A DNA stretch of 64,000 nt. Origin: Bacteroides sp. GTDB lineage: Bacteria; Bacteroidota; Bacteroidia; Bacteroidales; Bacteroidaceae. Where the stretch lies: contig SUXW01000012.1 of assembly GCA_015060765.1 (NCBI GenBank), positions 1-64,000 of the forward strand, given 5' to 3'. Below the pieces are notes generated by a model, which was given only the letters and a program-made list of their open reading frames with translations, was not told the origin of the DNA and ran no database searches. The position numbers were made by a program, and so were the translations under genes. Positions 3,448 to 51,322 of this stretch are shown here, piece by piece (within the stretch, counting starts at the first letter, position 1; each line of letters opens with the position of its first letter).

Positions 3448-3463
3448 TTAAGTCTATGAACAA

Positions 3464-3500: not shown

Positions 3501-3513
3501 TAGATTAATAGAT

Positions 3514-4643: not shown

Positions 4644-4671
4644 AATTCAAATATTTGCAAATTTCGAAGAG

Positions 4672-4679
4672 CAAAGATA
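4672..4679 (-). promoter_or_regulatory. Promoter -7 element for the RsmI-like gene
   Basis: TATCTTTG on the minus strand, 29 bp before the start codon. Confidence 0.55.
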
Positions 4680-5010
4680 CAAAATATTTAAGAATTGTTT
4701 CTTTTACCCATACACTTTCGATTAAATCGTGCTATTTTGAACAATTATTACTAAAAAGTGTCATTTTTGCCCATCCTTATAACAAAAATTCTACTTTATC
4801 TGTCAATTACTCCACATTGTTATAATTCCTTTGGAATATATTTGCAATCGAATTAAGAGGTTTTTTCATAATATTTATTTAAGGTTAGAATTAGGTTAAA
4901 TGATTATTACTATCCCCGTAAAAAGCCCGTGAGGGTATTTTACGGGTTGGTAATAAAAAATCTTTTGATTCGACGACGAATACCGATTATTAATTCCAAA
5001 CAGATATACT
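4680..5010 (+). promoter_or_regulatory. Promoter and 5' leader of the GH28 operon
   Basis: This gene-free stretch of about 330 bp carries TATATTTG at 4837-4844, a good TAnnTTTG -7 element. It predicts a leader of about 160 nt before the GH28 start codon. Within the leader CCCGTAAAA (4915-4923) and TTTTACGGG (4938-4946) can form a 9-bp hairpin. No T-run follows immediately, so it may be a structural or regulatory leader rather than a terminator. No ORF or RNA gene was seen. Confidence 0.5.
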
Positions 5011-6627
5011 ATGATCAAAACATTCAAGAATGTAGGTTTATTCCTATTGGGCGTAACTACATTTACTTTGGCAGGATGTTGCAATCAGGTTTCCACACAA
5101 CCAGCAGAAGAATTGATTGACCCTGCCATTTATTCATCACTTCCATTCCAAATGGAGCAAGTACAGCAACCATCTTTCCCTGATTATTCTGTCAGCATCG
5201 TAGAATTCGGTGCCGTTGCAGATGGAAAGACATTAAATACCAAGGCTATCAATGACGCCATCAAGCATGTCAACGAAAAAGGCGGTGGCAAAGTTATCAT
5301 CCCAGCCGGTCTTTGGATTACAGGTCCTATCGAAATTTTAAGTAATGTCAATCTTTATACTGAAAAAAACTCTTTAGTACTTTTCAGTGCCGACCACTCT
5401 TTATATCCTATTATTAATACATCATTCGAAGGTTTGAACACCACTCGTTGTACTTCTCCATTGTGGTCTAAAGGAGCAGAAAACATAGCCATTACTGGTT
5501 ATGGTACATTCGATGGAAACGGTGATACTTGGCGTCCAACCAAGAAAGAAAAGCTCACCGAAAACCAATGGAAAAAATTGGTTGCATCAGGTGGTGTGGT
5601 GGATGAAGCCGGCCGTATTTGGTACCCCAGCAAGGCTGCTTTGGAAGGTTCCATCTTGTCTAAAGGTAACTTCAATGTTCCTCGTGGTGTAGAAACTCAA
5701 GAAGATTGGGAATATTTCCGCGACTGGTTGCGCCCTGTCTTGTTGAGCTTCATCAAGTGTAACAAAGTATTGTTGGAAGGTGTTACATTCAAGAACTCTC
5801 CGGCATGGTGTCTTCACCCATTGTCTTGTAACGACATCACTATCAACAAAGTTACCGTATCCAACCCATGGTATTCACAAAACGGCGATGCCCTTGACCT
5901 GGAATCCTGTAACCGTGCACTCATCATAAACAACTCGTTTGATGCTGGTGATGATGGTATCTGTATCAAGTCGGGTAAAGATAAGGACGGACGCGAACGC
6001 GGTGAACCTTGCCAGAATGTCATCGTTAAAAACAACGTTGTATTACATGGCCATGGCGGTTTCGTAGTAGGTAGCGAAATGTCAGGTGGTGTGAAGAACA
6101 TCTATGTAGACAATTGTACTTTCATGGGAACCGACGTCGGTCTTCGTTTCAAGAGTACTCGTGGTCGTGGTGGTGTAGTGGAAAATATCCATATCAGTAA
6201 CATCAACATGATAAACATTCCGAACGAAGCCTTGATCTTCAACCTCTTCTATGGCGGTAAGGGTCCGGGCGAAGCCGGTTATGATGACAACAAGGGCGCT
6301 GAAATAGTACCTCCTGTTACAGAAGAAACTCCTTGTTTCAAGGATATCTATATCAAGAATGTAACTTGTAATGGTGCCGGTAGAGCCGTATACTTCAACG
6401 GTCTTCCTGAAATGCGCATCACCAACATCAATATGGAAAACATGAACGTAACCAATGCCGGTCGCGGTATCGAACTCAGCCAAGCCGACGGTGTTACCAT
6501 CAACAACGTAAAAGTTTCCCTCAAAGGTGAAGGCAAGAATCTGAAGATGCAAAACGTAGCCAATGTTACCATCAACGGACAGAAATATGAAAATGTAGAT
6601 GAAAAAATTCAAGAATTGAACTTTTAA
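5011..6627 (+). CDS. Glycoside hydrolase family 28 lipoprotein (polygalacturonase-like)
   Basis: 538-residue secreted lipoprotein: signal peptide with lipobox TLAGC (Cys about 22), then a right-handed parallel beta-helix starting at VEFGAVADGKT. The GH28 signature residues are present in order: NGDALDLES (NxD), DAGDDGICIKSG (the catalytic Asp pair), HGHGGFVVGSE (His-Gly) and RFKSTRGRGG (the RIK motif, here RFK). GH28 enzymes hydrolyse alpha-1,4-galacturonosyl bonds of homogalacturonan or rhamnogalacturonan; exo or endo action cannot be told. Insertions around residues 160-240 suggest an exo or pocket-type active site (inference). It heads an apparent operon with DUF4861 and GH43 genes, separated from the next gene by 82 bp containing a strong hairpin. 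A paralogue lies at 17121. Confidence 0.93.
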   Translation: MIKTFKNVGLFLLGVTTFTLAGCCNQVSTQPAEELIDPAIYSSLPFQMEQVQQPSFPDYSVSIVEFGAVADGKTLNTKAINDAIKHVNEKGGGKVIIPAGLWITGPIEILSNVNLYTEKNSLVLFSADHSLYPIINTSFEGLNTTRCTSPLWSKGAENIAITGYGTFDGNGDTWRPTKKEKLTENQWKKLVASGGVVDEAGRIWYPSKAALEGSILSKGNFNVPRGVETQEDWEYFRDWLRPVLLSFIKCNKVLLEGVTFKNSPAWCLHPLSCNDITINKVTVSNPWYSQNGDALDLESCNRALIINNSFDAGDDGICIKSGKDKDGRERGEPCQNVIVKNNVVLHGHGGFVVGSEMSGGVKNIYVDNCTFMGTDVGLRFKSTRGRGGVVENIHISNINMINIPNEALIFNLFYGGKGPGEAGYDDNKGAEIVPPVTEETPCFKDIYIKNVTCNGAGRAVYFNGLPEMRITNINMENMNVTNAGRGIELSQADGVTINNVKVSLKGEGKNLKMQNVANVTINGQKYENVDEKIQELNF

Positions 6628-6637
6628 TCTTACCTTT

Positions 6638-6690
6638 GTTACTCCAAATTACAGCATAGATTATTATCCTTTGCTGTAATTTGGAGTAAC
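6638..6690 (+). terminator. 19-bp perfect hairpin between GH28 and DUF4861 genes
   Basis: GTTACTCCAAATTACAGCA is followed 15 bp later by its exact inverse complement. Only CATTTTAATATTTT follows, a weak T-tract. It could be a partial terminator, or an mRNA stabiliser or processing site giving the first gene more transcript than the rest. The next ATG is 19 bp away. Confidence 0.6.
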
Positions 6691-6709
6691 CATTTTAATA
6701 TTTTAAGCC

Positions 6710-7924
6710 ATGAAAAAACACTTACTCCTCTCTTTGATTCTCTGTATGGGAATCTCTATTCACGCCCAAAATGCAGAGAAAATTATTCAAGTAACCATCA
6801 ACAACGATTGGAAAGAAAGCAAGGTCGACGAGCCCATTGTTATTGATTTAAACGAGTTGGGACTCGACTTTACTGTCAAATCAGCTATTGTATGGAATGG
6901 TAATCAAGAAATACCATCTCAATTGGACGATATGAACGGCGATGCTCGCGCCGACGAATTGGCATTACTCGTTGATATGCCAGCCAAGTCATCCAAAGAC
7001 TTGCGCATAGTCCTGTCATCAGCCAAGAGCGACAAACAATACCCAGCACGTACCTATGCACAGATGATGGCATACGGACATAACAACAAATTGGCATACA
7101 TCTCTGGATTTTCCGCTCCAGGTACCGAAAACGTATATAGCTTTGTATATCACCACGGACCAGCTTTCGAAAGTGAATTGGTAGGTTATCGCATCTACTT
7201 CAACGAGAAGCAGACCGTCGATCCTTATAGCAAAGTACACAAGCGTCTAGAAATCAAAGAAACCCGTTTCTATCCTACTAAAGATCAATTGGCTGCAGGC
7301 TATGGAGACGATGCCTTGAAGGTATACAACAGTGGTGGTGTAGGTGCCTTGAAAGGTTGGGATGGTAAAGAAACCATGCACATCAAACCCGTTTTGAACC
7401 GTACCGAACGTGTTATTGCTTCAGGTCCTGTACGCGCCATTGTAGAAGTAGAAGTGCTTGCTTGGGAATATCAAGGCAAGGAACTCAACATGATCAACCG
7501 TTACACCCTTTATGGTGGTCACCGTGATATCCAAGTAGATGCATTATTCGATCGTCCATTGGACAAAGAAACCTTTGCAGCCGGGGTACAGATTTTGAAA
7601 GAAGGCGACCACATGACCGACCACGACGGATTGTTGGGTAGCTGGGGAACCGATTGGCCTGTAAACGATACCGTTTATCACAAGAAAGAAACGACAGGTA
7701 TGGGGACCTTCATACCCAAGGCTATCCGCGTAAAAGAAACTGAAGATACTTCGAACTATCTGTATACCATCCAAGCACCAGGCAAGCAAGGCATCCGTTA
7801 CTATACTACTTTCACCTCTATGAAGGAAAGTTTCGGCTACAAAGGAATGAAGGAATGGTTTGCTTATCTGAAGGACTGGAAGAAAGTGTTGGAACACCCT
7901 TGTAAAGTAACTATCAAGAAATAA
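6710..7924 (+). CDS. DUF4861 domain-containing exported protein
   Basis: 404 residues with a signal peptide ending SIHAQ (about residues 1-19). The rest resembles the DUF4861 family, a Bacteroidetes family regularly found in pectin-degradation loci: an N-terminal beta-sandwich (VTINNDWKESKVDEPIVIDL) and a larger all-beta domain with GGHRDIQVDALFDRPL. I know of no established activity; a lyase or carbohydrate-binding role is conceivable. It is followed after 14 bp by the GH43 gene, so the two are surely co-transcribed. Codon use and style match the flanking genes. Confidence 0.8.
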   Translation: MKKHLLLSLILCMGISIHAQNAEKIIQVTINNDWKESKVDEPIVIDLNELGLDFTVKSAIVWNGNQEIPSQLDDMNGDARADELALLVDMPAKSSKDLRIVLSSAKSDKQYPARTYAQMMAYGHNNKLAYISGFSAPGTENVYSFVYHHGPAFESELVGYRIYFNEKQTVDPYSKVHKRLEIKETRFYPTKDQLAAGYGDDALKVYNSGGVGALKGWDGKETMHIKPVLNRTERVIASGPVRAIVEVEVLAWEYQGKELNMINRYTLYGGHRDIQVDALFDRPLDKETFAAGVQILKEGDHMTDHDGLLGSWGTDWPVNDTVYHKKETTGMGTFIPKAIRVKETEDTSNYLYTIQAPGKQGIRYYTTFTSMKESFGYKGMKEWFAYLKDWKKVLEHPCKVTIKK

Positions 7925-7938
7925 AAACGAATAAGCAT

Positions 7939-9600
7939 ATGAAAAAAATAATGACTCTCTGCCTGTTGGGTGCAAGCTTTCTAACAGGAATTGCACAAAA
8001 CAGTGTATCAAAAACTTGGGTACCCGATTTAGGAAACGGAACCTACAAGAATCCGGTATTGTATGCCGATTATTCCGATCCGGACATTTGTCGCGTGGGC
8101 GATGACTATTATATGACTGCCTCCAGCTTCAACTGCTTGCCAGGTCTTCCTATTCTTCACTCCAAGGATTTGGTGAATTGGACCATCATCGGCCATGCAG
8201 TAGCCTCTTCATTGGCTCCTCATAGCAATACCCGTCCACAACATGGTAACCATATCTGGGCACCTTGTATCCGTCACCACAACGGTGAATTCTACATCTA
8301 TTGGGGTGATCCCGACCAAGGTGTATACATGGTAAAGACCAAAGACCCTAGAGGCACTTGGGAAGAACCCGTATTGGTAAAGGCAGCCAAGGGTATCATC
8401 GATACTACTCCTCTTTGGGATGAAGATGGCAAAGTATACTTGGCCCATGCTTATGCGGGTAGCCGTGCCGGTTTGAAGAGTGTGATTGCTGTATGCGAAA
8501 TGAATGCCGAAGGAACCAAGACCATCGGTCCTTCACGCATCATTTTCGACGGTCACGAAGCTCATCAGACATGCGAAGGTCCTAAGTTTTACAAGCGTAA
8601 TGGATACTATTACATCTTCCATCCAGCTGGTGGTGTTCCTACTGGTTGGCAAGTGGTGCTCCGTTCCAAGAATGTATATGGTCCATATGAATGGAAGACT
8701 GTATTGGCACAAGGAAATACTCCAGTCAATGGTCCTCACCAAGGTGGTTGGGTAGATACTCCGGAAGGTGAAGACTGGTTCATGCACTTCCAGGATGTAG
8801 GTGCTGCCGGCCGTTTGGTACACTTGCAACCAGTTAAGTGGGTGAACGATTGGCCTGTTATCGGCATTGACAAGGATGGTGATGGCTGTGGCGAACCTGT
8901 ATTGACTTACCAAAAGCCAAAGACAAGTGCCAAATACCCTATCTGCACTCCACAGGAAAGTGATGAATTCAACACCAACATCCTTGGCTTGCAATGGCAA
9001 TGGCATGGAAACATCAACGAAAAATGGCATTATTGCAATCCAACCGACGGTTACATCCGCCTCTATTCTCATCCGGTTCCTGAAGATTACAAAAGCCTTT
9101 GGGATGTATCCAACTTGCTGATGCAGAAAGTTCCAGCTCCAAGCTTCACTGCTACTACCAAGTTGAAATTCTCGCCCATTGAAAAGTACAAAGGCGAACG
9201 TGCCGGTTTGGTGGTAATGGGTATGGACTATGCTGCCCTGGCCATTGAAAATACAGAAAATGGGTTGGTTCTTTCTCAAGTAGAATGCTTGAAGGCCGAC
9301 AAGGGAAATACTGAAACTGTAAATGAATCGGTTACGCTCAAGAACAACGAAGTATATCTTCGTGCCAAGGTAACCACTACCGGTGAAAAAATCGGCAAGA
9401 GCGAAGGTGGTCACGATTTGGTAGTGAAGTGCCAAATGTACTATAGCACCAACGGTAAGAAGTTCCAGAAATTGGGTAAGGAATTCCAACTCAAAGAAGG
9501 CAAATGGATTGGTGCCAAAGTCGGTATATTCTGTACTCGTCCAGCTATCGTAACCAACGATGGTGGTTGGGCCGATGTAGACTGGTTCCGTATGGAATAA
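7939..9600 (+). CDS. Glycoside hydrolase family 43 (beta-xylosidase/arabinofuranosidase type)
   Basis: 553 residues: signal peptide to about residue 19 (TGIAQ), then a five-bladed propeller beginning YADYSDPDICRVGDDYYM, where the first Asp is the usual GH43 catalytic base. IIDTTPLWDEDGKVYL carries the middle Asp and EGPKFYKRNGYYYIF the general-acid Glu. From about residue 335 a beta-sandwich (ESDEFNTNILGLQWQW) matches the XynB C2-type concanavalin-like domain that completes the active site of many GH43 xylosidases. Likely substrates are xylose or arabinose side chains; subfamily and specificity cannot be fixed by eye. It is the last gene of the GH28-DUF4861-GH43 unit, closed by a strong terminator. 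No SusC/SusD pair is nearby. Confidence 0.92.
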   Translation: MKKIMTLCLLGASFLTGIAQNSVSKTWVPDLGNGTYKNPVLYADYSDPDICRVGDDYYMTASSFNCLPGLPILHSKDLVNWTIIGHAVASSLAPHSNTRPQHGNHIWAPCIRHHNGEFYIYWGDPDQGVYMVKTKDPRGTWEEPVLVKAAKGIIDTTPLWDEDGKVYLAHAYAGSRAGLKSVIAVCEMNAEGTKTIGPSRIIFDGHEAHQTCEGPKFYKRNGYYYIFHPAGGVPTGWQVVLRSKNVYGPYEWKTVLAQGNTPVNGPHQGGWVDTPEGEDWFMHFQDVGAAGRLVHLQPVKWVNDWPVIGIDKDGDGCGEPVLTYQKPKTSAKYPICTPQESDEFNTNILGLQWQWHGNINEKWHYCNPTDGYIRLYSHPVPEDYKSLWDVSNLLMQKVPAPSFTATTKLKFSPIEKYKGERAGLVVMGMDYAALAIENTENGLVLSQVECLKADKGNTETVNESVTLKNNEVYLRAKVTTTGEKIGKSEGGHDLVVKCQMYYSTNGKKFQKLGKEFQLKEGKWIGAKVGIFCTRPAIVTNDGGWADVDWFRME

Positions 9601-9635
9601 CCTTGTCAGTTGTAAGATTGTAAGTTGTCAATAGG

Positions 9636-9675
9636 AAAGTGCCACTTTACGAAATGTAAAGTGGCACTTTATTCA
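9636..9675 (+). terminator. Terminator of the GH28-DUF4861-GH43 operon
   Basis: AAAGTGCCACTTTAC gaaat GTAAAGTGGCACTTT is a 15-bp perfect stem with a 5-nt loop, ending in T residues. Confidence 0.8.
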
Positions 9676-9761
9676 TTCTAATATCTTGTTAAATAGTGTC
9701 ATTCCTCGAACATTCGTTTTCGCGATGTGTTAATCCATCAAAATCATTTAAACAAGATGTT

Positions 9762-10841
9762 ATGGATTCAAGATTATCAACATTCCTTCTGGCAGCTTCC
9801 TGTATGACTTTCCAAATACCTGCTTCAGCCTGTACCGGTATCACATTAAAGAGTAAGGATGGTTCCACCATTGCAGCACGTACCATTGAATGGGCAGAAA
9901 GCGTAATGAAGACCATGTATGTAGTTGTTCCTCAAAAACACGAATTACAATCGCTCACCCCTTCCGGAAAAGACGGATTAAAATTTAAGGCCCAACATGG
10001 ATTCATCGGTTTGGCGGTCGAGCAAGAAGAATTCATTGTGGAAGGGATTAACGAGAAAGGACTTTCTGCAGGTCTATTCTACTTTCCCAATTATGGTAAA
10101 TACCCTTCCTACGATGCTACCCAAAAAGACAAAAGCCTCTCCGACTTCCAATTGGTTTCGTATGTACTCGCTGAATGCAGTTCTTTAGACGAAGTAAAAG
10201 AGGCATTGTCCGACGTACGCGTCATCAATATTGACCCTCGTTCATCAACGGTACATTGGCGATTTACAGAACCTTCGGGGAAACAAATGATTTTAGAAAT
10301 CGTAAATGAAGTCATGCATTTTTACGATAATCCTTTAGGAGTGTTTACCAATTCGCCCGGGATAGAATGGCATTGGACCAATCTAAACAACTATATCAAC
10401 CTGCAACCCGGAACATTACCCGAACACAATTTCGGTCCGTTGGAAATGAAATCCTTTGGACATGGAAGTGGGCTACTTGGACTTCCCGGTGATTTCACTC
10501 CCCCTTCCCGATTTGTCCGTGCCACTTTTTTCCAACTGACTGCGCCACAACAGCCCGACGCCCGAAGAAGTGTAATTCAGGCATTCCATATATTGAATAA
10601 TTTCGACATACCGACAGGAAGCGAGCAACCTTGGGGAAAAGCATCTGCCGATGTTCCAAGTGCGACACAATTCACGGTGGCATCAGACACCCAAAATCGG
10701 ATGATTTATTATCGCACGATGTATAATAGCAGCATACGTTGTATCGACCTGAAAGCCATCGATTTCAACAAAGTCAGATACCACACCAAACCTTTGGATG
10801 AAATAAAAGAACAACCGATAGAAATGATAACAATCAAATAA
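9762..10841 (+). CDS. Linear amide C-N hydrolase (choloylglycine hydrolase / penicillin V acylase family)
   Basis: 359-residue exported Ntn-hydrolase. The track's start is a GTG at 9696, but the ATG at 9762 gives a clean signal peptide ending ASA-C. Cleavage before that Cys would expose the catalytic N-terminal nucleophile. The family Arg follows in AARTIEW, then the Asn-type motif TNSPGIEW and the Arg in PSRFVRAT. At the position that is Asp in classical bile salt hydrolases (RTxDW) this protein has Glu (RTIEW). It may hydrolyse conjugated bile salts, penicillin V or acyl-homoserine lactones; the substrate is not predictable from sequence alone. It is monocistronic, between the GH43 terminator and the DUF1847 gene. 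Confidence 0.87.
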   Translation: MDSRLSTFLLAASCMTFQIPASACTGITLKSKDGSTIAARTIEWAESVMKTMYVVVPQKHELQSLTPSGKDGLKFKAQHGFIGLAVEQEEFIVEGINEKGLSAGLFYFPNYGKYPSYDATQKDKSLSDFQLVSYVLAECSSLDEVKEALSDVRVINIDPRSSTVHWRFTEPSGKQMILEIVNEVMHFYDNPLGVFTNSPGIEWHWTNLNNYINLQPGTLPEHNFGPLEMKSFGHGSGLLGLPGDFTPPSRFVRATFFQLTAPQQPDARRSVIQAFHILNNFDIPTGSEQPWGKASADVPSATQFTVASDTQNRMIYYRTMYNSSIRCIDLKAIDFNKVRYHTKPLDEIKEQPIEMITIK

Positions 10842-10887
10842 GACATTGTTATTTGCCCCTTTTCATTCATTATCCACAAAAAGAAAC

Positions 10888-10895
10888 TATATTTG
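10888..10895 (+). promoter_or_regulatory. Promoter -7 element for the DUF1847 gene
   Basis: TATATTTG, 33 bp before the ATG at 10929. Confidence 0.55.
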
Positions 10896-10928
10896 TACTT
10901 CCAATAATTATTGAAGTACAGATATAAT

Positions 10929-11567
10929 ATGGAGAAAGAACAAGTAACTATTCATAGTTGTGTAGATTGCGGCACTCAAAATTGCAAGTTCAAGACTCGT
11001 ACTTATCCCGAATTCTGCCCAACTACCCAGTTAAAGGAGGAGGACCTGCAATGGGCTTTGGAACGATATCAGGAAGAACGGAACCATAACATTATGGTAG
11101 CCAGTGCGGAAGTGGAATACGAAGGATATTGCCAATGGACGAGAGTGCAAGAGATCATGGAATTTGCCAAAAAGATTGGAGCACGAAAAATAGGTATAGC
11201 CAACTGCATCGGACTCATTAACGAAGCACGAATCTTTGCCAAGATACTTCGTTCCAACGGATTTGAAGTTTATTCCGTCATCTGCAAAGTTGCCGGTAAA
11301 GCCAAATCATCCATCGGCATTCCTTCCCGATGTGAAGAGATAGGTGCTGCCATGTGTAACCCTATTTTGCAAGCACGCCTATTGAATGAAGCGAAAACCG
11401 ATTTGAATGTAGTCATCGGTCTTTGCGTAGGCCACGACAGTTTGTTCTACAAATATTCCGATGCCTACGTCACAACATTGGTAACAAAAGACAGGGTGAC
11501 GGGCAACAATCCTGCTGCCGCTCTCTATACCGCCCAGTCCTATTATAAAAAGAAGTTCGGAGTGTAA
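10929..11567 (+). CDS. DUF1847 domain-containing cysteine-rich protein
   Basis: 212 residues from the ATG at 10929; the track's TTG at 10911 lies too close to the promoter to be the start. The N-terminus has a cysteine cluster (SCVDCGTQNCKF... and EFCPTTQ) likely to bind metal or an Fe-S cluster. A Rossmann-like body contains further conserved Cys (ANCIGL, CKVAGKAK, GLCVGHDS). This matches the DUF1847 family of anaerobes, whose function is unknown as far as I know. The last codons and the stop lie inside a 50-bp palindrome shared with the end of murF. Confidence 0.85.
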   Translation: MEKEQVTIHSCVDCGTQNCKFKTRTYPEFCPTTQLKEEDLQWALERYQEERNHNIMVASAEVEYEGYCQWTRVQEIMEFAKKIGARKIGIANCIGLINEARIFAKILRSNGFEVYSVICKVAGKAKSSIGIPSRCEEIGAAMCNPILQARLLNEAKTDLNVVIGLCVGHDSLFYKYSDAYVTTLVTKDRVTGNNPAAALYTAQSYYKKKFGV

Positions 11568-41919: not shown

Positions 41920-42174
41920 TTACAACTTCTCAATCTTCACTACTTGTCCTTTTCCAGCTGTCAGGATGTCGACAGCTGCCTTAATGGCATCCATAGCGCC
42001 AGCATCAGCTGTCGGAGCAACGGCCGAAACCTTCTTCTTCGGAGCCTCTTCGGGTGCGAACTTATTCACTATGGCAATCAGTCCCTTACCCAAGTAGATA
42101 ACGATGAGGAGAATGACAAAAACAGTAGCCATACCAACCACCATTAACATCAATGCAACTTCCAAATTCTCCAT
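41920..42174 (-). CDS. oadG: Oxaloacetate decarboxylase gamma-like subunit
   Basis: 84-residue single-span membrane protein: N-terminal helix LMLMVVGMATVFVILLIVIYL, then a short charged, Ala-rich cytoplasmic tail (APEEAPKKKVSAVAP). This is the OadG pattern; the gamma subunit anchors alpha to beta. First gene of the oad operon, 30 bp before oadA, with its own promoter upstream. Confidence 0.88.
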   Translation of the reverse strand: MENLEVALMLMVVGMATVFVILLIVIYLGKGLIAIVNKFAPEEAPKKKVSAVAPTADAGAMDAIKAAVDILTAGKGQVVKIEKL

Positions 42175-42235
42175 AAAGTTTTTATTATCAATTCATTCTA
42201 AAATATTCACAAATCACAAAAGCAAAAATTGCGTT

Positions 42236-42243
42236 CAAATATA
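42236..42243 (-). promoter_or_regulatory. Promoter -7 element for the oad operon
   Basis: TATATTTG on the minus strand, 62 bp before the oadG start. Confidence 0.5.
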
Positions 42244-42316
42244 CATTTTTTTCATGATAGTTTATCATAATTAAATCACAAAATATATTAAATCGTCAGT
42301 ATTCCGAATAAATATG

Positions 42317-42324
42317 TATCTTTG
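42317..42324 (+). promoter_or_regulatory. Promoter -7 element for the phosphoglycolate phosphatase gene
   Basis: TATCTTTG, 20 bp before the start codon. Confidence 0.55.
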
Positions 42325-42344
42325 CAGAAGAAAAAACAAAGTCT

Positions 42345-42992
42345 ATGAAGAAACTTGTCATATTCGACCTTGACGGTACCCTATTGAATACCATCGCCGA
42401 CCTTGCAGCCTCTACCAATCAAGCCCTGCAACATTTCGGTTACCCGACACATTCCACCGAAGCCTATCGCTTCTTTGTGGGCAATGGCATCAACAAATTG
42501 TTTGAACGGGCACTTCCCGAAGAAGAACGCACGGAAGAGAACGTCCTCCGTATCCGCTCCCGTTTTATACCTTATTATAATGAGCACAATGCCGTATTCA
42601 GCACCCCCTACCCCGGTATTCCAGAATTGCTGCATACCCTTCAAGAAAAAGGTATCCTATTGGCAGTTGCTTCCAACAAATACCAATTGGCTACAGAAAA
42701 GTTGATTGCACATTATTTTCCCACCATCCCATTCATTCAAGTATTGGGGCAACGCGAAGGTGTTCCCATCAAGCCCGACCCAACCATCGTAAACGACATT
42801 CTGGCGACTACCGAACTGAACAACAACGATGTGCTTTATGTAGGCGATTCGGGAGTAGATATGCAAACCGCCCGGAATGCAGGAGTAGATGCCATCGGTG
42901 TTTCCTGGGGGTTCCGTCCCCGCACGGAACTGGAGCCACTTCAACCGTTGGCTATCATCGACAAAGCAGAAGATTTGTTGGGATTCATCTAA
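42345..42992 (+). CDS. HAD-family phosphatase, probable phosphoglycolate phosphatase
   Basis: 215 residues with the HAD nucleophile motif FDLDGTLLNT, motif II AVASNK, the motif III Lys in GVPIKPDP and motif IV YVGDSGVDMQTARNAG. The helical cap between them is of the Gph type (C1). It probably removes phosphate from 2-phosphoglycolate formed by DNA repair or side reactions; other HAD substrates cannot be excluded. It converges with the DUF4435 gene with 3 bp between stops. Confidence 0.88.
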   Translation: MKKLVIFDLDGTLLNTIADLAASTNQALQHFGYPTHSTEAYRFFVGNGINKLFERALPEEERTEENVLRIRSRFIPYYNEHNAVFSTPYPGIPELLHTLQEKGILLAVASNKYQLATEKLIAHYFPTIPFIQVLGQREGVPIKPDPTIVNDILATTELNNNDVLYVGDSGVDMQTARNAGVDAIGVSWGFRPRTELEPLQPLAIIDKAEDLLGFI

Positions 42993-42995
42993 ACA

Positions 42996-43994
42996 TCATC
43001 CCATTCTTTTCAGAAATTCCCTGATATCATTCTCTATTTTCTTGTAGAGAGGAGACTCTTTGTATCCGTCCTGCTTACGAAGTACGACATCTATACCCAA
43101 CAAACTGCGTTCATAACAAGTCAGTTCGTTGCGGTATTGGGTATTATGCATGGCCAATGCCTTGATTTCCGTTTCACGTTCCCTACGCAACGTCGTACAG
43201 ACAGGCCCCAACAATTTCAGCGTAACACTCTCCATGATGTGATGTCCTTGAATAAACATATAAGTCGTTTCGGGAGTAACGCCCAAATATTCGAATTCGG
43301 CCTTCAATGATTCGATTTCATTCAGTGCATGAGCATATCTCTTCTCCAGATTCTTCACTTTATTGTTTACCCGTTTTGCCATTTGGGCAAGACACTCTTC
43401 AGGTCGACGGATATTGACATGATCAAGACGTACATAAGAGCAGAATTCCATCAATGGGAAACCATTAAGGTCACGTTTCCGATAAAACCATACCGACCAT
43501 ACAAACAACGGATAAGCAATTTGCGAATACATCCGCATGAATCCTTCATAATCCACCAACTGATGATCGTTCAGTGTAGCCATGACACAAGCCTCATGAA
43601 GTGCACCGGCATAACACTGATAATTCTCTATGGCATAAGCATAAGTCTGAAACACGAAACGACTGTTGTTGATTTGTCGTGAAGTAGAAGTAGTCTGTTG
43701 CAACAAATAATCATAATCGCTATCCACACATGCCACCATATTCACACCCAAGCGGGCACCCAAATCATTCATCAACACCGACTTCTTTCCTTTCTGAAGG
43801 TTTTTCTTGGAAGGGAGCATTACTTCAAAATAACAATGTTCGTCTTCGAAATCAGCAAACACCGATCGCCAGAAAGCGATATCATCATAGCTTTCCACAT
43901 AAGCTATGATTTTCTTCTTCGCCTTCTTGGGTTTCAGTTTGTTGGCCGCTCCCAAATATAAAGAACACAGATTATCCGACAATCGCTTTCCCAT
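42996..43994 (-). CDS. DUF4435 protein, TOPRIM-type (AriB-like)
   Basis: 332 residues of the DUF4435 family, which has a TOPRIM nuclease fold. IIAYVESYDDIAFWRSVF gives the catalytic Glu (about 34), and MVACVDSDYDYLL the Asp-x-Asp (91/93). AYAIENYQCY is the conserved SIENYL-like segment, and a helical region (about 190-250) and GHHIMESV follow. DUF4435 proteins paired with an ABC-type ATPase form the PARIS anti-phage system (AriB with AriA). Here the ATPase gene lies directly upstream, 9 bp away, in one operon. Metal ligands look intact, so nuclease activity is plausible. Core-like surroundings could mean a housekeeping relative. Confidence 0.82.
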   Translation of the reverse strand: MGKRLSDNLCSLYLGAANKLKPKKAKKKIIAYVESYDDIAFWRSVFADFEDEHCYFEVMLPSKKNLQKGKKSVLMNDLGARLGVNMVACVDSDYDYLLQQTTSTSRQINNSRFVFQTYAYAIENYQCYAGALHEACVMATLNDHQLVDYEGFMRMYSQIAYPLFVWSVWFYRKRDLNGFPLMEFCSYVRLDHVNIRRPEECLAQMAKRVNNKVKNLEKRYAHALNEIESLKAEFEYLGVTPETTYMFIQGHHIMESVTLKLLGPVCTTLRRERETEIKALAMHNTQYRNELTCYERSLLGIDVVLRKQDGYKESPLYKKIENDIREFLKRMG

Positions 43995-44003
43995 ACCTCT
44001 CTA

Positions 44004-44834
44004 TTATTCAACGATGTCAGTAATGTCGGTCACTTCGGTCACAGCATCCATCCAGCCATCCATAATCATGGCAGGCGAATGAGTGGTAAGGATAATCTGT
44101 ACATTAGGATTCAAGCTACGAATCAGTCCGATGAGTCGTTGTTGCCATTCCACATGCAACGACACTTCAGGCTCATCCATAAACATCACTCCGCTACGAT
44201 TGTCTTGCACCAATACCGTAAGCAAGATAACAAGCATTTGCTTCTCTCCAGCCGAAAGTTGGTAAGGATAAAGCAAATCGCCGTCCTGTTCAAAACGGAT
44301 TTCATTGCTCTTGCGTACAATCATCTTTCCTGTTTCGCCGAAAAGTTCATCCACCAAATCCTGGAATTTCGTCTTGGGCTGTGAAAGTTGCGCCGCCTTC
44401 AACTGGTCTTCGGGATTTCCGGAAGTCAAACATTCTATGATGCGGTTGCCGATATTCACCTGATAGTCCAGATAACGACGTTGAAGCTGGTATAGTTGCC
44501 AGTCGAGTTCTGTCTTCACATTCTTGTCTGCCATTTTTTCCAGCAAGTCGGAATGAATGAGCGGACGGTCAAAGCTCCGAATCACATCGTAATGGATATA
44601 AGTAGCATCTTCGGGCGAGAAAACCAGCTTCACTCCATTGGTTGCTTCACTATGGAGCGATCCCCCTTTCAAATCATCCAACGAATGTACCGAACGGTTC
44701 AGAATGGTACTCTTTCCAATACCATTTACCCCACTCAGGATATTCACTTCGGGATTCAGTTCCCATGAAATGTTCTTACGGCCCCAAAGCCCTTTGATTT
44801 CGATACGCTTGATGTAATCCGCCTGCTTTTTCAT
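44004..44834 (-). CDS. ABC-type AAA ATPase paired with DUF4435 (AriA-like)
   Basis: 276-residue soluble ATPase of the SMC/Rad50/OLD-like group. Walker A is SGVNGIGKST (about 34-43), the ABC signature YQLSAGEKQM (about 187-196), Walker B GVMFMDEPEVSLH and the switch His TTHSPAMI. There is no membrane domain, and the middle insertion (about 75-170) is short and helical. Known AriA proteins of PARIS are clearly longer, so this is a compact version. Operon promoter TACCTTTG lies 23 bp upstream, and the DUF4435 gene follows after 9 bp. Confidence 0.85.
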   Translation of the reverse strand: MKKQADYIKRIEIKGLWGRKNISWELNPEVNILSGVNGIGKSTILNRSVHSLDDLKGGSLHSEATNGVKLVFSPEDATYIHYDVIRSFDRPLIHSDLLEKMADKNVKTELDWQLYQLQRRYLDYQVNIGNRIIECLTSGNPEDQLKAAQLSQPKTKFQDLVDELFGETGKMIVRKSNEIRFEQDGDLLYPYQLSAGEKQMLVILLTVLVQDNRSGVMFMDEPEVSLHVEWQQRLIGLIRSLNPNVQIILTTHSPAMIMDGWMDAVTEVTDITDIVE

Positions 44835-44856
44835 AATGTACGAATGTTTCTTTTAG

Positions 44857-44864
44857 CAAAGGTA
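44857..44864 (-). promoter_or_regulatory. Promoter -7 element for the ATPase-DUF4435 operon
   Basis: TACCTTTG on the minus strand, 23 bp before the ATPase start. Confidence 0.55.
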
Positions 44865-44885
44865 AAAAAATAAAAAAGAAACAAC

Positions 44886-44893
44886 TACTTTTG
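44886..44893 (+). promoter_or_regulatory. Promoter -7 element for the DMT transporter gene
   Basis: TACTTTTG, 23 bp before the start codon at 44917. Confidence 0.55.
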
Positions 44894-44916
44894 CACCGTT
44901 TTTTAAGGCAAATTGT

Positions 44917-45849
44917 ATGAAGATTCAGAAATATCAGGCACATCTGGCACTTTTGGGTGCAGCTATATTGTGGGGATTGATGTCTCCAGTCGGTAAGACT
45001 GCTATGGAAAACGGCATTTCAGGCATATCATTAGCCACGTTCCGAATGACAGGTGGAGCCGTATGTTTCTGGTTGGCTTCCCTCTTTTCCAAGCAGGAGA
45101 CCGTCCGTCCGAACGACCTGCTGGGAATGTTCTTTGCCGCCCTGTTTGGCATTGTATGCAATCAGGGATGTTTCACTTTCGGGCTGTCCATCACCTCTCC
45201 CATCGACGCCTCCATCATTACTACAACGGCACCTATCGCCACCATGATCATTGCCGCCATATACCTGAAGGAACCGATTACGGGGAAAAAGGTGACTGGA
45301 GTCTTTTTAGGTTCCATCGGTGCATTGATTCTGATAGTAAGCAGTGCAGGAACGGCCAGCGGCAGAGAAGGGAACATATGGGGAGATTTGTTATGCCTCA
45401 CCGCACAAGTCAGTTTTTCATGCTATCTGGTCTTCTTCAAGAATCTGATATCCAAATACAGCATATTCACTTTAATGAAATGGATGTTCACTTATGCCGC
45501 CATCTGTTTCATTCCATTCTCGTACCACGAAGTATCCACCCTACAATTTCAGGAAATCCCCCTCTTCGCCTGGTATTGCGTAGCATTCGTCATACTTGGA
45601 GGTACCTTCTTTGCCTACATCCTGATGATGATGGGACAAAAGACTTTGCGACCTACCGTCATCAGCATGTACAACTACATCCAACCGATTGTAGGCACCA
45701 CTGTTTCTGTATGGCTGGGATTGGGAACTTTCGGTATCGCCAAAGGGATAGCCGTGGTACTGGTCTTTACCGGAGTCTATATTGTTACGCAAAGCAAGAG
45801 CCGCGAGCAGATGCTGGCCGAGGAGAACGGAATCAATCCCTCAGAGTAA
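44917..45849 (+). CDS. EamA/DMT-family transporter
   Basis: 310-residue inner-membrane transporter with about ten hydrophobic helices in two EamA repeats (LALLGAAILWGLMSPVGKTAMENG in the first, WGDLLCLTAQVSFSCYLVFFKNL in the second). Family members export amino acids, nucleobases or other metabolites; the substrate cannot be read. It faces the SO_0444-type gene with only 6 bp between stops. Confidence 0.9.
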   Translation: MKIQKYQAHLALLGAAILWGLMSPVGKTAMENGISGISLATFRMTGGAVCFWLASLFSKQETVRPNDLLGMFFAALFGIVCNQGCFTFGLSITSPIDASIITTTAPIATMIIAAIYLKEPITGKKVTGVFLGSIGALILIVSSAGTASGREGNIWGDLLCLTAQVSFSCYLVFFKNLISKYSIFTLMKWMFTYAAICFIPFSYHEVSTLQFQEIPLFAWYCVAFVILGGTFFAYILMMMGQKTLRPTVISMYNYIQPIVGTTVSVWLGLGTFGIAKGIAVVLVFTGVYIVTQSKSREQMLAEENGINPSE

Positions 45850-45855
45850 CGATAT

Positions 45856-47097
45856 TTACTCCATTTCGAAGCCGATGCTTTCCACCGCTTGCCTTACGGC
45901 CTCTTTATCAGCCTTACCATAAACTACGGTTCTTCCTGTCGGGAGATCTACCTCTACCCGTTCCACACCTTCCACCTTCAAGATAGCCTTTTCCACATTA
46001 TTACGACAATGATTGCAGGTCATGCCCTTGACTGTAGTTACCCACTGGTTTTCCGAACCACCGCATGAGCAGCCTGCGTGACAAGTACAGGCCTCCGGCT
46101 TGCGATAACGTTGGACAAAAGCATTCAGCAGCAACAGAGCCAACAAGATGGTACAACCCACATTAAACCAGGAAATCCCCTCTTCGTGGCATGCATGGAT
46201 TTTTGCCAGCGGAGCGACAAACCATTCGCGGGGCAGCAAGTAATCGATACCCAAGCCAAAAAGAATGGCACCGCTCACAATGGACAACAGATATAAAGCC
46301 AATGTCCTTTTCCCCATCACCTTGCTGATGACCAGCATGGAAGCCACATTCACTGCGGGTCCGGCCATAAGCAGCACCAATGCCGTACCCGGCGAAAGAC
46401 CCTTCAACATCAAAGCGATGGCTATGGGAATAGACCCTGTAGCACATAGATACATGGGAATGGCAAATGCCAGAACCAACAACATACTGAGAAGCGGTTT
46501 GTCGGCAAAGACGGCAAAAAACGAATCGGGAACAAATACAGTAATGAGTCCCGCTACTACCAATCCCATCACCAACCATTTACCTATATCCTGCATCATT
46601 TCCACAAAAGCATAACGGAAAGCCGACTTTATTTTTTGTCCGAACGACAACCCCTCTTGCTGTTCTGTCGATGCTGCAACCACAGGCTTTTCCTCCACCC
46701 CTTCTTTCTCGTCAAAACGGTTGACCAGGCATCCCCCCATCAACGAAGTGGCCAAGGCCACCAACGGACGAAGCAAGGCAAAAGGCAATCCCATCAGCGA
46801 ATAAGTGGCAAAGATGGAATCCACGCCCGTTTGCGGAGTCGAAATCAAGAACGATACAGTAGCTCCTCTCGATGCCCCTTCCTTACGCAACGACATGGCA
46901 GTAGGAATCACACCACACGAGCACAACGGCAAAGGAATGCCAAGCAAGGCAGCATTCAGCACCGAGCGAAACGAACTTCCGCCCAAATAACGGCGGTACA
47001 ATGTATTGGGAACAAAAGCGTGCATCACTCCTGCCAGGAAGAAACCCAGCAACAAATACGGAGCCATGCTATTGATCAATTCGAATATCTCTCTCAT
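45856..47097 (-). CDS. SO_0444-type metal efflux permease with C-terminal HMA domain
   Basis: 413 residues from MREIFELI (start 47097; the track's start overlaps the MATE gene). The permease part (about 1-340) has the DUF318/ArsP-like pattern: LLGIPLPLCSCGVIPTAMSL with the paired Cys, STPQTGVDSI, CATGSIPIAIAL and a second helical bundle. A Cys/His-rich linker (CTCHAGCSC) leads to a heavy-metal-associated domain with MTCNHCRNNVE (about 350-413). This matches the SO_0444 family of Cu/Zn efflux permeases. The fused HMA domain and the Cys-rich linker probably deliver the metal ion. Its promoter lies in the end of the MATE gene. Confidence 0.87.
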   Translation of the reverse strand: MREIFELINSMAPYLLLGFFLAGVMHAFVPNTLYRRYLGGSSFRSVLNAALLGIPLPLCSCGVIPTAMSLRKEGASRGATVSFLISTPQTGVDSIFATYSLMGLPFALLRPLVALATSLMGGCLVNRFDEKEGVEEKPVVAASTEQQEGLSFGQKIKSAFRYAFVEMMQDIGKWLVMGLVVAGLITVFVPDSFFAVFADKPLLSMLLVLAFAIPMYLCATGSIPIAIALMLKGLSPGTALVLLMAGPAVNVASMLVISKVMGKRTLALYLLSIVSGAILFGLGIDYLLPREWFVAPLAKIHACHEEGISWFNVGCTILLALLLLNAFVQRYRKPEACTCHAGCSCGGSENQWVTTVKGMTCNHCRNNVEKAILKVEGVERVEVDLPTGRTVVYGKADKEAVRQAVESIGFEME

Positions 47098-47110
47098 AAC
47101 GTTTTTAGTT

Positions 47111-48451
47111 TTATACCACAAATTTACGATGTTTCTTCATCCAAACAAAAACTCCTACACAAATTATGACCGAGACAACCGATCCTGTCACCGTAGCAAG
47201 CCCCATAGGGAACAAGGTAGTGGGATACATAATGGAAGCCAAATAAGCCAACGGAACACGAGCCACTACAATGGACACAGCATTATGGATAAACGAAATG
47301 ATGGACCACCCACAAGCGCAGAAGAAACCACTGAAACAGAAATGAATACCCGCAAATACACAATCCCATACATACCCCTGCAAATATTGGCAACCTTGAA
47401 CAATGACCTGCGGGTCGTCGGTAAACAGGCCGACCGCCTTCTCGGGGAATATCTGCATGATGATAGAAAAGAACGTACCGAAACCGATAACGATGCAATT
47501 GGCATACCAAAGGGTACGGATGGCACGATCCAGTTTGCCAGCCCCCAGATTTTGGGCCGAAACAGTAGAAACCGTAGACAGCATGGACGAAGGGATGAGG
47601 AACAGAATACCAATTATCTTTTCAACAATCCCTACTGCTGCCGCATCATTCAGTCCTCGCTGGTTGGCTATGATAGTAATGATAATGAATCCCACTTGAA
47701 CAAATCCGTCCTGCAAAGCCACAGGTACCCCTATATTCAATATCTTCCCCATGACAGCCCTTTGTGGTTTCAAGTCGGACCGACTGATACGGATACCCGA
47801 ATCCCCCCGGTTCATGGCTATCAAAGCAACAACAACACTTACCGTCTGCGAAAGCGTGGTAGCCCAAGCCGCTCCGGCAGCTCCCATATCAAAATAACCT
47901 ATCAACAGATAATCGAGTAGAACATTCACTACACAAGCTATAGCAATGAAGTACATCGGACTTTTGGAATCCCCCATACCCCGATAGATGGAAGCGATGA
48001 TGTTATAAGCAACAATGAAAGGAATCCCAATAAAGCAGATAGTGAGATACGAAGTAGTCTCGGTAGCAGCCTCAACGGGAGTAGACATCAGTGAAACAAT
48101 ATCACCTACCCATCCCACCAAGCCGGCCGCCATCAGCAACGAAAACACCATAAATAGGGTTACGGTATTCCCCACTACCCGTTTGGTACGCGCCACATCG
48201 TTTGCTCCGACCGATTGTGCCGTTGTCACGGTAGTCCCCATAGCCAGCCCCACCACAATAACCGTTACCATGTGCATCACTTGGCTACCGATAGAAACAG
48301 CCGTGATACTGCTCACCCCACAATACTGCCCCACTACAAACAAATCGGCCAATCCATAGAGTGTCTGCAGAAAGTAAGACAACAAGTATGGCAAGGAAAA
48401 CGAAACGATGTTTCCCATAATGCTGCCGTTGGTAAGGTTTTTACTTTTCAT
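47111..48451 (-). CDS. MATE-family multidrug/metabolite exporter
   Basis: 446 residues with twelve predicted helices in two MATE repeats. The N-terminal segment is NIVSFSLPYLLSYFLQTLYGLADLFVVGQYCG and the second half begins ILNIGVPVALQDGFVQVGFIIITIIANQRG. An Na+ or H+ driven exporter of cationic compounds; substrate unknown. Transcribed from TATTTTTG at 48477-48484 and possibly reading through into the metal permease 13 bp downstream. Confidence 0.92.
   Translation of the reverse strand: MKSKNLTNGSIMGNIVSFSLPYLLSYFLQTLYGLADLFVVGQYCGVSSITAVSIGSQVMHMVTVIVVGLAMGTTVTTAQSVGANDVARTKRVVGNTVTLFMVFSLLMAAGLVGWVGDIVSLMSTPVEAATETTSYLTICFIGIPFIVAYNIIASIYRGMGDSKSPMYFIAIACVVNVLLDYLLIGYFDMGAAGAAWATTLSQTVSVVVALIAMNRGDSGIRISRSDLKPQRAVMGKILNIGVPVALQDGFVQVGFIIITIIANQRGLNDAAAVGIVEKIIGILFLIPSSMLSTVSTVSAQNLGAGKLDRAIRTLWYANCIVIGFGTFFSIIMQIFPEKAVGLFTDDPQVIVQGCQYLQGYVWDCVFAGIHFCFSGFFCACGWSIISFIHNAVSIVVARVPLAYLASIMYPTTLFPMGLATVTGSVVSVIICVGVFVWMKKHRKFVV
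47119..47126 (-). promoter_or_regulatory. Possible promoter -7 element for the metal permease inside the MATE gene end
   Basis: TAAATTTG on the minus strand, 22 bp before the permease start codon at 47097. Confidence 0.4.
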
Positions 48452-48622: not shown

Positions 48623-49280
48623 TTAATTCAATAAATTCGTAGCAGAAGTATACGTAGTATTGTTCACCGTATTAGCATTTCCTACACCCCAATCATTAAC
48701 CTGAATCTTGATGCCATTTGACTCAAATGTGCAATTATCTTCCTTATAAGTAACGTTGCAACCTCCTGTTTCACCACCAACATAGATATTATGCCAACCG
48801 CCAGTACACTTGAATGTACCTGCATTAACAGAACCGGTAGAACCGTTGTTGTAAGAAACATTAGTAAATACTGATTCGAAAGAACCACCGTTGATGGTCA
48901 AAACAGGAGTTCCGTCTCCAAAGTTATTTGAATTTATCAACGCTTTTTCTGAAGAAGTATTCTTATAGGAACCACCTTCAATTGTAGTTTCTCCATCATA
49001 TACATTGTTAATGGCGTTTTCTACAGACTCAATATCGCAATTGATGGTCAATGTACCGTTGTTCTGAATACCAACTTGGGTAGATGTAATTTTACCATTC
49101 TTTACTTCCAAGTTTGCTGTATTCTTTATACCCGGATAACCGCTCTGTGGAGTGAAGGCCAAAGTATAACCATTCAAATCAAGAACCAAATCCTTTTCAA
49201 CCTTAATTAATGCACTGACATTTGATATATTAGTACCCAAAGCAACTTCACCGCCAGCAGCGATAGCTGTTCTCAAAGCT
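48623..49280 (-). repeat. Intragenic repeat, copy A (C-terminal)
   Basis: Second, C-terminal copy of a 672-bp direct repeat. CCAACTTGGG at 49071 and CCAGTACACT at 48801 recur exactly 672 bp further at 49743 and 49473. Blocks of DNA in the middle of the unit are almost unchanged between copies. Confidence 0.85.
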
Positions 49281-51322
49281 GTTTCTGTAGATGCAAAATA
49301 GATGTTATGAGCTCCTGTATATTCAACGTTGTTCAAAGTGTTCTTGTTTCCTTCTACACCCCAATTGTTAACCTGAATATTGATGCCATTTGATTCAAAG
49401 GAACAATTTTCAGCATCGTAAGTAACATTACATCCTCCTTCAGAACCACCGACATAGATATTGTGCCAGCCGCCAGTACACTTGAATGTACCACCATTGA
49501 CTGTACCCGTTGAACCATTGTTGTAAGAAACATTAGTAAATACTGATTCGAAAGAACCTTCAGCGATGTTTAAGACAGGGGATCCATTTCCATGATTGTC
49601 GGAATAGATAAGAGCCGATTCGGTATCAGTATTCTTGTAAGTACCACCATTGATTGTTGTTTCACCATCATATACATTGTTGATTGCATTGAAAACAGAT
49701 TCAATATCGCAATTAATAGTCAATGTACCGTTATTCTGAATACCAACTTGGGTAGATGTAATTTTACCATTCTTTACTTCCAAGTTCGCTGTATTCTTGA
49801 TACCCGGATAACCGCTCTGTGGAGTGAAGGCCAAAGTATAACCGTTCAAATCAAGAACCAAATCCTTTTCAACCTTAATTAATTCGCTTATATTCAAAAC
49901 ATCGCCTGTTAAAGTATAGCTACCACCATCAGCGATAGCTTGACGCAAATCATATTCAGCAGCAGATACGATTTTAATATTTTCTGTTTCCGCAATAGAA
50001 GTAGTTGCATCCGCTTCTAAAATAAGATAAATCACACCACCAGTTGCATTGGTCAAGCTTCCTATCGTTGCATTTTTATGAAGACGCACATTACCACCAT
50101 TGATAGTCAAATTGGTTATGCTTGCACCTTCATTAACAATTAAGGTATGTTCTGCAGTTGTTGCTTGCAAATCAGCTATCTTACCATTAATATATACTGT
50201 AGTATTAGGCAAATCAATATTCAACTTAGCTACAGCTTCTTCTGGTAAAGTCAAATTCAATGTTTTGATAGGATTATCACCAGTTGTAGACGAAGCATCT
50301 TCTATCGAAATTTCATTTTCATAAGAAATACTTTCTATTGCGATTGAAAGGTTTTGTTCGTCACTTTCTTGGCCAGGGATAAGAATAGTTGTAACTGTTT
50401 CTGATTCTGGTATAGCTGAAATAACTACCTCTTCGGCACCTTCTTGCAATGCTTTATTGGCTGCAGCTACACCTTCTACAGTTTCACTCTCACCGCCACC
50501 TGTAATTTCCTTTTTACCGATTGTACCTTTCTTTTGAGCACGACGGACTACTTTTTGGTTTTCCCAATAGCCCCATGCAAATGCTTCATCACCATTTTTA
50601 AGTGTTACATTAATAACGGGATAGTCTCCCACAGGAGCCGGGATATAAAAGACACCAGAAGCATTTGCTGTTGCATTCTTAAAAGAAATGATAACTTGAT
50701 CGTCACCCGCTGTTGTTGCCGCAGTTTCCAATATCGGTTCATCATCAGTCAAATCCGCTTCGAAATCACCTGCAATTCGCTTTCCATCAGTTTTAAAAAT
50801 AAACTGCATATCATCACCTACAGGAAGGTTATGGACATAAATTTTGAATACACCACCCAAATGTTTGAATGATACACCACCATTTTCCAATGCTCCCCAC
50901 ATTGCAATGTTAAAGCTATTTTCTTTTTCTCCAATTACTTCACCGTAATCATAAGATGAAGGCAGATTAAAAGTCAATTCGCCTCCAGATGTCAAATCAT
51001 GATTAGTTGAATATGGATAAATGGCATAATTACCAAAAGAAAGATTGGTAGTAATTTCAAAATTACCTGATGATTTACCACCGTCGCCTTCTTTCAATGT
51101 CATAGGAAGAACTTCATTATTACTCATCAAAGCACCAATCTTATCTGCTTCATGCCAGAAAAAAGAACCGTCAGATTCCATACCAGCACGCGATCCTACC
51201 AATTCACTTTCAGTAGAAACTTTCAAAGTCTTAATACTTGAACCTTGTTCAAACAAATCTTCATTATTACATGCCGTAAAAATACCAGCACATAAAATAA
51301 TACCAAATAATTTTGTTTTCAT
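48623..51322 (-). CDS. Fimbrillin-like lipoprotein with two near-identical beta-helix repeats
   Basis: 899-residue surface lipoprotein. Signal peptide with lipobox FTAC (Cys about 18). Residues about 30-275 resemble the fimbrillin/Mfa-like domain (GSFFWHEADKIGALMS, SFKHLGGVFKIYVHN). A linker of beta strands follows (about 280-450), then two repeats of 224 residues (about 455-680 and 680-899). Each contains LVLDLNGYTLAFTP, GIQNNGTLTINCDIES and FKCTGGWHNIYVGG, typical of a right-handed beta-helix. The repeats are nearly identical over long stretches at DNA level. It is probably an adhesin or glycan-binding surface protein; no enzyme motif is seen. A 40-residue ORF precedes it by 18 bp. Confidence 0.85.
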   Translation of the reverse strand: MKTKLFGIILCAGIFTACNNEDLFEQGSSIKTLKVSTESELVGSRAGMESDGSFFWHEADKIGALMSNNEVLPMTLKEGDGGKSSGNFEITTNLSFGNYAIYPYSTNHDLTSGGELTFNLPSSYDYGEVIGEKENSFNIAMWGALENGGVSFKHLGGVFKIYVHNLPVGDDMQFIFKTDGKRIAGDFEADLTDDEPILETAATTAGDDQVIISFKNATANASGVFYIPAPVGDYPVINVTLKNGDEAFAWGYWENQKVVRRAQKKGTIGKKEITGGGESETVEGVAAANKALQEGAEEVVISAIPESETVTTILIPGQESDEQNLSIAIESISYENEISIEDASSTTGDNPIKTLNLTLPEEAVAKLNIDLPNTTVYINGKIADLQATTAEHTLIVNEGASITNLTINGGNVRLHKNATIGSLTNATGGVIYLILEADATTSIAETENIKIVSAAEYDLRQAIADGGSYTLTGDVLNISELIKVEKDLVLDLNGYTLAFTPQSGYPGIKNTANLEVKNGKITSTQVGIQNNGTLTINCDIESVFNAINNVYDGETTINGGTYKNTDTESALIYSDNHGNGSPVLNIAEGSFESVFTNVSYNNGSTGTVNGGTFKCTGGWHNIYVGGSEGGCNVTYDAENCSFESNGINIQVNNWGVEGNKNTLNNVEYTGAHNIYFASTETALRTAIAAGGEVALGTNISNVSALIKVEKDLVLDLNGYTLAFTPQSGYPGIKNTANLEVKNGKITSTQVGIQNNGTLTINCDIESVENAINNVYDGETTIEGGSYKNTSSEKALINSNNFGDGTPVLTINGGSFESVFTNVSYNNGSTGSVNAGTFKCTGGWHNIYVGGETGGCNVTYKEDNCTFESNGIKIQVNDWGVGNANTVNNTTYTSATNLLN
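49295..49952 (-). repeat. Intragenic repeat, copy B (N-terminal)
   Basis: First copy of the 672-bp (224-codon) repeat. It differs from copy A mainly in the loops after the GGETTIxGG-type turn, while the LVLDLNGYTLAF to INCDIES block is nearly identical, as expected from recent duplication or gene conversion. Confidence 0.85.

Follow-up and report, generated by a model that had tools for sequence, protein, structure and literature searches.

Introduction

PARIS is an accessory immune system in which a hexamer of the ATPase AriA sequesters AriB, and its anti-phage activity is triggered by anti-restriction proteins. PARIS is called from sequence where an AAA_15/AAA_21 ATPase gene and a DUF4435 gene are adjacent (PMC9122126), and the system has been reported in 5.2% of genomes (PMC9122126). 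During tRNA cleavage, the anticodon loop is held by AriB residues K60 and K64, which lie 34 and 38 residues after E26 (PMC12409363). A further group of related ATPases, namely PtuA of Septu and retrons, GajA of Gabija and other OLD-type ABC ATPases, is associated with HNH or helicase proteins, or with a fused TOPRIM domain, in the PtuA/GajA-type systems (PMC12839542). Our literature search returned nothing specific to an ATPase–DUF4435 pair in Bacteroides.

An operon for an ATPase and a DUF4435 protein

We analyzed a 64,000-nucleotide stretch of DNA from Bacteroides sp. (the window). Its open reading frames include an ATPase gene followed, after a gap of 9 bp, by a DUF4435 gene, both on the minus strand (42996-44834). 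The features of the locus are as follows.

44004..44834, minus strand: AriA-like (OLD/ABC-type) ATPase, 276 aa (ORF; PADLOC AriA; AF2 fold match)
44709..44732, minus strand: Walker A GVNGIGKS, ATPase residues 35-42 (sequence; orthologue alignment)
44244..44258, minus strand: ABC signature LSAGE, ATPase residues 193-197 (LSAGEK in the sequence; L193, G196 and E197 in 53/53 orthologues)
44172..44177, minus strand: Walker B Asp220-Glu221 (DEPE) of the ATPase (53/53 orthologues)
44079..44081, minus strand: switch histidine His252 of the ATPase (53/53 orthologues)
42996..43994, minus strand: AriB-like DUF4435 TOPRIM protein, 332 aa (ORF; Pfam DUF4435; PADLOC AriB; AF2 fold match)
43893..43895, minus strand: TOPRIM catalytic Glu34 of the DUF4435 protein, equivalent to AriB E26 (47/47 core orthologues; 16/16 rows of family f95, see below)
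43716..43724, minus strand: TOPRIM Asp91-x-Asp93 of the DUF4435 protein (47/47 core, 16/16 f95 rows)
43623..43631, minus strand: I-E-N motif, DUF4435 residues 122-124 (N124 in 47/47, E123 in 46/47; aligned to AriB GHS(I/L)EN)
44856..44864, minus strand: Bacteroides-type -7 promoter element TACCTTTGC (TA and TTT unchanged across the 16 aligned loci of the genus)
44882..44884, minus strand: -33 TTG promoter element, with a spacer of 17 bases to the -7 element (most of the 16 loci have a TTG-like triplet here)
44917..45849, plus strand: EamA/DMT exporter, the head-to-head neighbor, given as context and outside the system (EamA cluster in 48 of ~100 loci)

The DUF4435 protein matched Pfam PF14491 with 179.8 bits (9.6e-53; cut-off 27), and the ATPase matched AAA_21 with 73.8 bits (cut-off 27) and AAA_15 with 65.4 bits (cut-off 32.1). 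In the Walker A motif, G35, G38, G40 and K41 were found in all 53 ATPase orthologues, with serine at position 42 in 43 of them and threonine in 10. A single Bacteroides-type promoter, TTG-N17-TAccTTTGC, is predicted from the sequence directly upstream of the ATPase gene, and its TA..TTT core is kept in 16/16 aligned loci of the genus. E. coli-type sigma-70 promoters at the pair scored no higher than in shuffled sequences, and an Rfam scan of 42000-46000 gave no RNA element. The reading frames, motifs, Pfam matches and conserved promoter together identify a real operon, and the ATPase and the DUF4435 protein are thus encoded in one operon with intact active sites. An earlier note on this DNA, made from the letters alone, had given the same coordinates, 276-aa ATPase, DUF4435 partner and 9-bp gap, which the reading frames bear out; its Walker A, LSAGE, Walker B, switch histidine and E34/D91/D93 are present and, but for the S/T at Walker A position 42, invariant (53 ATPase and 47 DUF4435 orthologues), and its single promoter is the one described above.

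Relationship to PARIS AriA and AriB

In both sequence and predicted fold, PARIS AriA and AriB are the solved structures closest to the pair, in agreement with the homology that the earlier note had claimed and that PADLOC models, profile search and fold search all back. The ATPase matched nearly the whole PADLOC AriA model PDLC04164 (253 positions) with 192.6 bits, and the DUF4435 protein matched the AriB models PDLC02983 (208.5 bits) and PDLC04165 (120 bits). A PDB search with a profile of 53 ATPase orthologues retrieved AriA (5e-22), with 46 N-terminal and 78 C-terminal positions as the only aligned parts; since only these two blocks align, 138 residues of the ATPase stand for ~313 of E. coli AriA. 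Comparison of predicted structures, which the earlier note had proposed, gave a match for each protein. The best PDB match of the ATPase model (AF2, pLDDT 85) was AriA 8v45 (E 1.4e-11, TM-score ~0.6), and the sole significant match of the DUF4435 model (AF2, pLDDT 88) was AriB 8ux9_A (E 2e-4, TM-score ~0.45). A PDB sequence search with the DUF4435 protein gave no match, also when run with a profile. Canonical AriB relatives taken from plasmids have VE, E-N and G-H motifs in common with it, and a profile-profile alignment with AriB, significant by E-value though of low probability, sets VE on VE. In all 47 core rows a K/R-G-K-K motif, with R accepted at position 68 or 71, follows Glu34 by 34-37 residues, in a region where the profile alignment to AriB is weak.

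The pair resembles E. coli-type PARIS (PDB 8ux9, 8v45, 8v46) in having an ATPase gene followed by a DUF4435/TOPRIM gene, in the Walker A, ABC signature, Walker B and switch histidine of the ATPase, and in the TOPRIM acids VE..D and D-x-(D/E) with the shared E-N motif. It differs in that AriA has 464 aa and the ATPase 276 aa, the central region of AriA being largely absent, and in that AriB has D-R-E where the DUF4435 protein has D-S-D. PtuA, GajA and other OLD-type ABC ATPases share the ATPase core with weaker sequence and fold matches, but the partner here is a DUF4435 protein whose sole significant fold match is AriB.

The earlier note had seen the novelty in an unusually small ATPase and had proposed a minimal PARIS variant on that ground. 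Neither point is supported: one of the AriA models in PADLOC has only 253 positions, so that the size of the ATPase is unexceptional, and small size was ruled out as the novelty. Compact PARIS is a known PADLOC type (AriA PDLC04164, AriB PDLC04165), which the pair resembles in an ATPase of ~240-280 aa, a near-full model match and a DUF4435 partner, and a textbook compact pair occurs in the same genome (locus L017, G000:C31; PADLOC AriA 369.5 and AriB 398.4 bits). It lies in the following island.

G000:C31:76000-88000, 650-11326: defense island L017 with HerA, SIR2, the compact PARIS pair and an HKD+SNF2-type helicase (PADLOC)

The pair studied here, which we call the core pair, scored 193/120 bits against these models, in contrast to 370-389/398-400 for the accessory pairs L017 and L033, and the tree places the DUF4435 proteins of accessory compact PARIS apart from those of the core pair. 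The AriB of L017 was found in 11/121 Bacteroidaceae genomes. Accessory copies are sporadic, the one examined (L017) sits in a defense island, and their dN/dS was 0.05-0.16 in the few pairs compared. What is unusual in the core pair is its distribution, not its size.

Distribution and constraint in Bacteroidaceae

Using one genome per species, we found a DUF4435 orthologue in 388/399 genomes of the family (~97%), in 22/22 genera and normally as one copy; a few of the 388, for example G044, match by a divergent DUF4435 copy only. The ATPase orthologue was present in 114/121 genomes of the family and in 16/16 genera. Named matches include Phocaeicola, Bacteroides, Paraprevotella, Mediterranea and Prevotellaceae, from which the family (f1) would be Bacteroidaceae in the broad GTDB sense. 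The figure of ~97% differs from the 5.2% of genomes reported for PARIS (PMC9122126), and the core pair, in 388/399 genomes and among ordinary neighbors, does not show the sporadic distribution of an accessory PARIS cassette. The earlier note had set against its own reading the case of a strictly syntenic pair in nearly all Bacteroidales; near-universality was found within Bacteroidaceae only, as matches across the order were confined to 28/296 genomes and synteny is partial.

The core DUF4435 rows of the family form one clade (96) in a quick-method tree with long branches elsewhere. Among unsaturated pairs, dN/dS was 0.02-0.07 for the core DUF4435 protein and 0.003-0.06 for the ATPase (few pairs, simple counting method, several comparisons saturated in dS). 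The core pair is under strong purifying selection, with dN/dS mostly below 0.07.

Losses mostly affected both genes. DUF4435, too, is missing from six of the seven genomes (of 121) that have no ATPase orthologue; the seventh, G067, retains DUF4435 with no strong ATPase match. All seven genomes of genus g19 without the pair have a similar divergent MscS, and the five g19 loci read keep MscS and AraC while pair and EamA are absent, which looks like one clade-wide loss.

Where both genes were called among the ~100 loci read, the ATPase gene precedes the DUF4435 gene on the same strand, usually within 60 bp. The EamA/DMT gene was present in 48 of ~100 loci read, mostly directly beside the ATPase gene and head-to-head with it. 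Other neighbors identified by eye were MscS, MeaB, AraC and a helicase (MscS, MeaB and DMT also by annotation), and synteny beyond EamA is lineage-specific. Flanks unlike a defense island, as the earlier note had described them, agree with a PADLOC scan of five neighbors of the core pair, in which no defense gene was found. At two loci (L136, L139) the ATPase and DUF4435 genes are separated by an extra opposite-strand gene that, by eye, resembles a lipoprotein gene. At two others (L053/L054; G211 and G417, genus g21) a divergent pair stands beside EamA, with an ATPase ~46% identical, 258 aa long and shortened in its central region. Its position at the usual EamA site is possibly due to replacement in situ.

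A nuclease kept without the ATPase in a second family

In a second family (f95, possibly Muribaculaceae) a DUF4435 protein with 34-41% identity was found in 78/80 genomes and 16/16 genera. Glu34, Asp91, Asp93, Glu123-Asn124 and Gly250-His251 were intact in 16/16 rows checked. The ATPase profile gave a strong match in only ~11/80 of these genomes, absence meaning no profile match at E <= 1e-12, so that another ATPase could substitute. Where present, the ATPase was adjacent (e.g., G701, G711) or unlinked (G702, G715, G721, G706), and it was unlinked in two genera. In the same kind of tree (quick method, long branches elsewhere), the DUF4435 rows of f95 form one clade (98) and the ATPase-less rows among them another (85), consistent with a single ATPase loss and long retention of the nuclease afterwards. 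As f95 kept the nuclease after loss of the ATPase, the nuclease would have a selected job independent of this ATPase. Deleting ariA alone from E. coli PARIS is non-toxic (PMC9122126), and loss of the ATPase therefore need not have harmed at once. A simple toxin restrained by a dedicated antitoxin does not readily explain why DUF4435 was retained without the ATPase. We sought a conserved neighbor for the solitary f95 DUF4435 gene and found none. In another family, f89, most genera showed an all-or-none pattern of the pair.

Interpretation

A near-universal pair, and a nuclease kept without its partner, suggest that the role is fixed or housekeeping and not one of optional defense. Retention, intact chemistry and strong constraint point to a fixed role for the pair, and we put about even weight on a fixed, vertically inherited and probably domesticated or housekeeping PARIS-type module whose role is kept in essentially all Bacteroidaceae, with a role of the nuclease beyond the pair. 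In its favor are the counts (388/399 and 114/121, against 11/121 for the accessory copy), the single clade, the low dN/dS, the ordinary neighbors and the lack of phage relatives, as well as the mostly joint losses of the two genes, the f95 nuclease kept with its motif residues intact, and the fold matches to AriA and AriB. Against it, some solitary f95 DUF4435 pairs have a higher dN/dS of 0.08-0.33, and another ATPase might serve the solitary nuclease. The earlier note had also offered a housekeeping ancestor of PARIS. Of this, a housekeeping relative (near-universal, single-copy, vertical and constrained, with the nuclease alone in f95) fits better than a minimal variant; as to ancestry, either the core pair or accessory PARIS may be the older.

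By analogy with AriB biochemistry (PMC12409363), the pair would act as an ATP-gated TOPRIM RNase, probably on tRNA. The ATPase would dimerize around ATP and gate the DUF4435 nuclease, an internal or infection-derived signal would presumably free it, and the freed nuclease may then use two-metal TOPRIM chemistry to cut a structured RNA, with tRNA as the likeliest target, and so slow translation. We infer a stress or housekeeping role for such an activity. More broadly, AriB-like TOPRIM nucleases may have a conserved cellular function in a large clade of gut Bacteroidales (e.g., regulated tRNA cleavage or tRNA quality control), for which one family would use a compact AriA and the other would not, and accessory PARIS may be an offshoot or relative of a housekeeping RNase; we hold this extension tentatively, as somewhat short of an even chance.

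The main and serious rival is a core immune guard, that is, bona fide PARIS fixed in the family, in which the compact AriA would sense a widespread phage protein and release an AriB-like tRNase, aborting the infection. We regard this as a real possibility, though on balance a doubtful one. Universality is compatible with immunity, as a guard can become fixed. Components and gene order are those of PARIS, both active sites are intact and the best matches are AriA and AriB; all three Pfam scores exceed their cut-offs across a 9-bp gap, so that both PADLOC and the sequence rule of PMC9122126 would call the pair PARIS. Two genomes carry a DUF4435 gene split by a frameshift (pseudogene or sequencing error) beside an intact ATPase gene (L044 in G267, L037 in G343), a toxin-antitoxin-like pattern. 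However, the pair is near-universal and strongly constrained, unlike the accessory PARIS of the same genomes, the five neighbors scanned were free of defense genes, and the nuclease persists without the ATPase across most of f95.

The two genes might also be separable: DUF4435 would be an ordinary enzyme of RNA or DNA processing, the adjacent ATPase a lineage-specific regulator or loader, and the resemblance to PARIS would then reflect shared superfamily ancestry only. DUF4435 alone is core in f95, where the ATPase can be unlinked, and G067 provides a similar case in Bacteroidaceae. We nevertheless consider this unlikely: in Bacteroidaceae essentially every locus read has the two genes side by side, and they are almost always lost together, and the ATPase was found without DUF4435 only in G197, at a contig end, and in G356, as a sporadic-type copy.

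With PARIS components present as a near-universal, constrained pair in Bacteroidaceae, and with the nuclease as a core gene lacking its ATPase in a related family, gene deletion in tractable Bacteroides can test directly whether the role is immunity or housekeeping, and which of the two is older. Automated defense annotation will label the core pair as PARIS in nearly every Bacteroidaceae genome.

Mobility and further observations

The reading as an ordinary, sporadic PARIS cassette placed among chromosomal genes by chance, which the PADLOC AriA/AriB matches would allow, is most improbable and is refuted at family level by the DUF4435 (388/399) and ATPase (114/121) counts, as well as by the single clade, single copy, conserved promoter and neighbor, and the lack of a convincing mobile copy in phage and plasmid collections. 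Among 50,697 phage records there was no relative of the pair, and the sole plasmid-record match inspected showed its usual chromosomal neighborhood. One viral contig (L159, IMGVR_UViG_2595699002_000001, 4988-7017) encodes a related pair of ATPase (339 aa) and DUF4435 protein (338 aa), the latter 31% identical. The core pair was rejected as a mobile element on these three results.

Two further genes of the window, both on the minus strand, have unusual architectures. One (45856-47121) encodes a single protein in which an ArsP-type permease carries a heavy-metal-associated (HMA) domain at its C-terminus. The other (48623-51322) encodes an 899-aa probable lipoprotein, as judged by eye, with a long, near-identical internal duplication in its C-terminal half.
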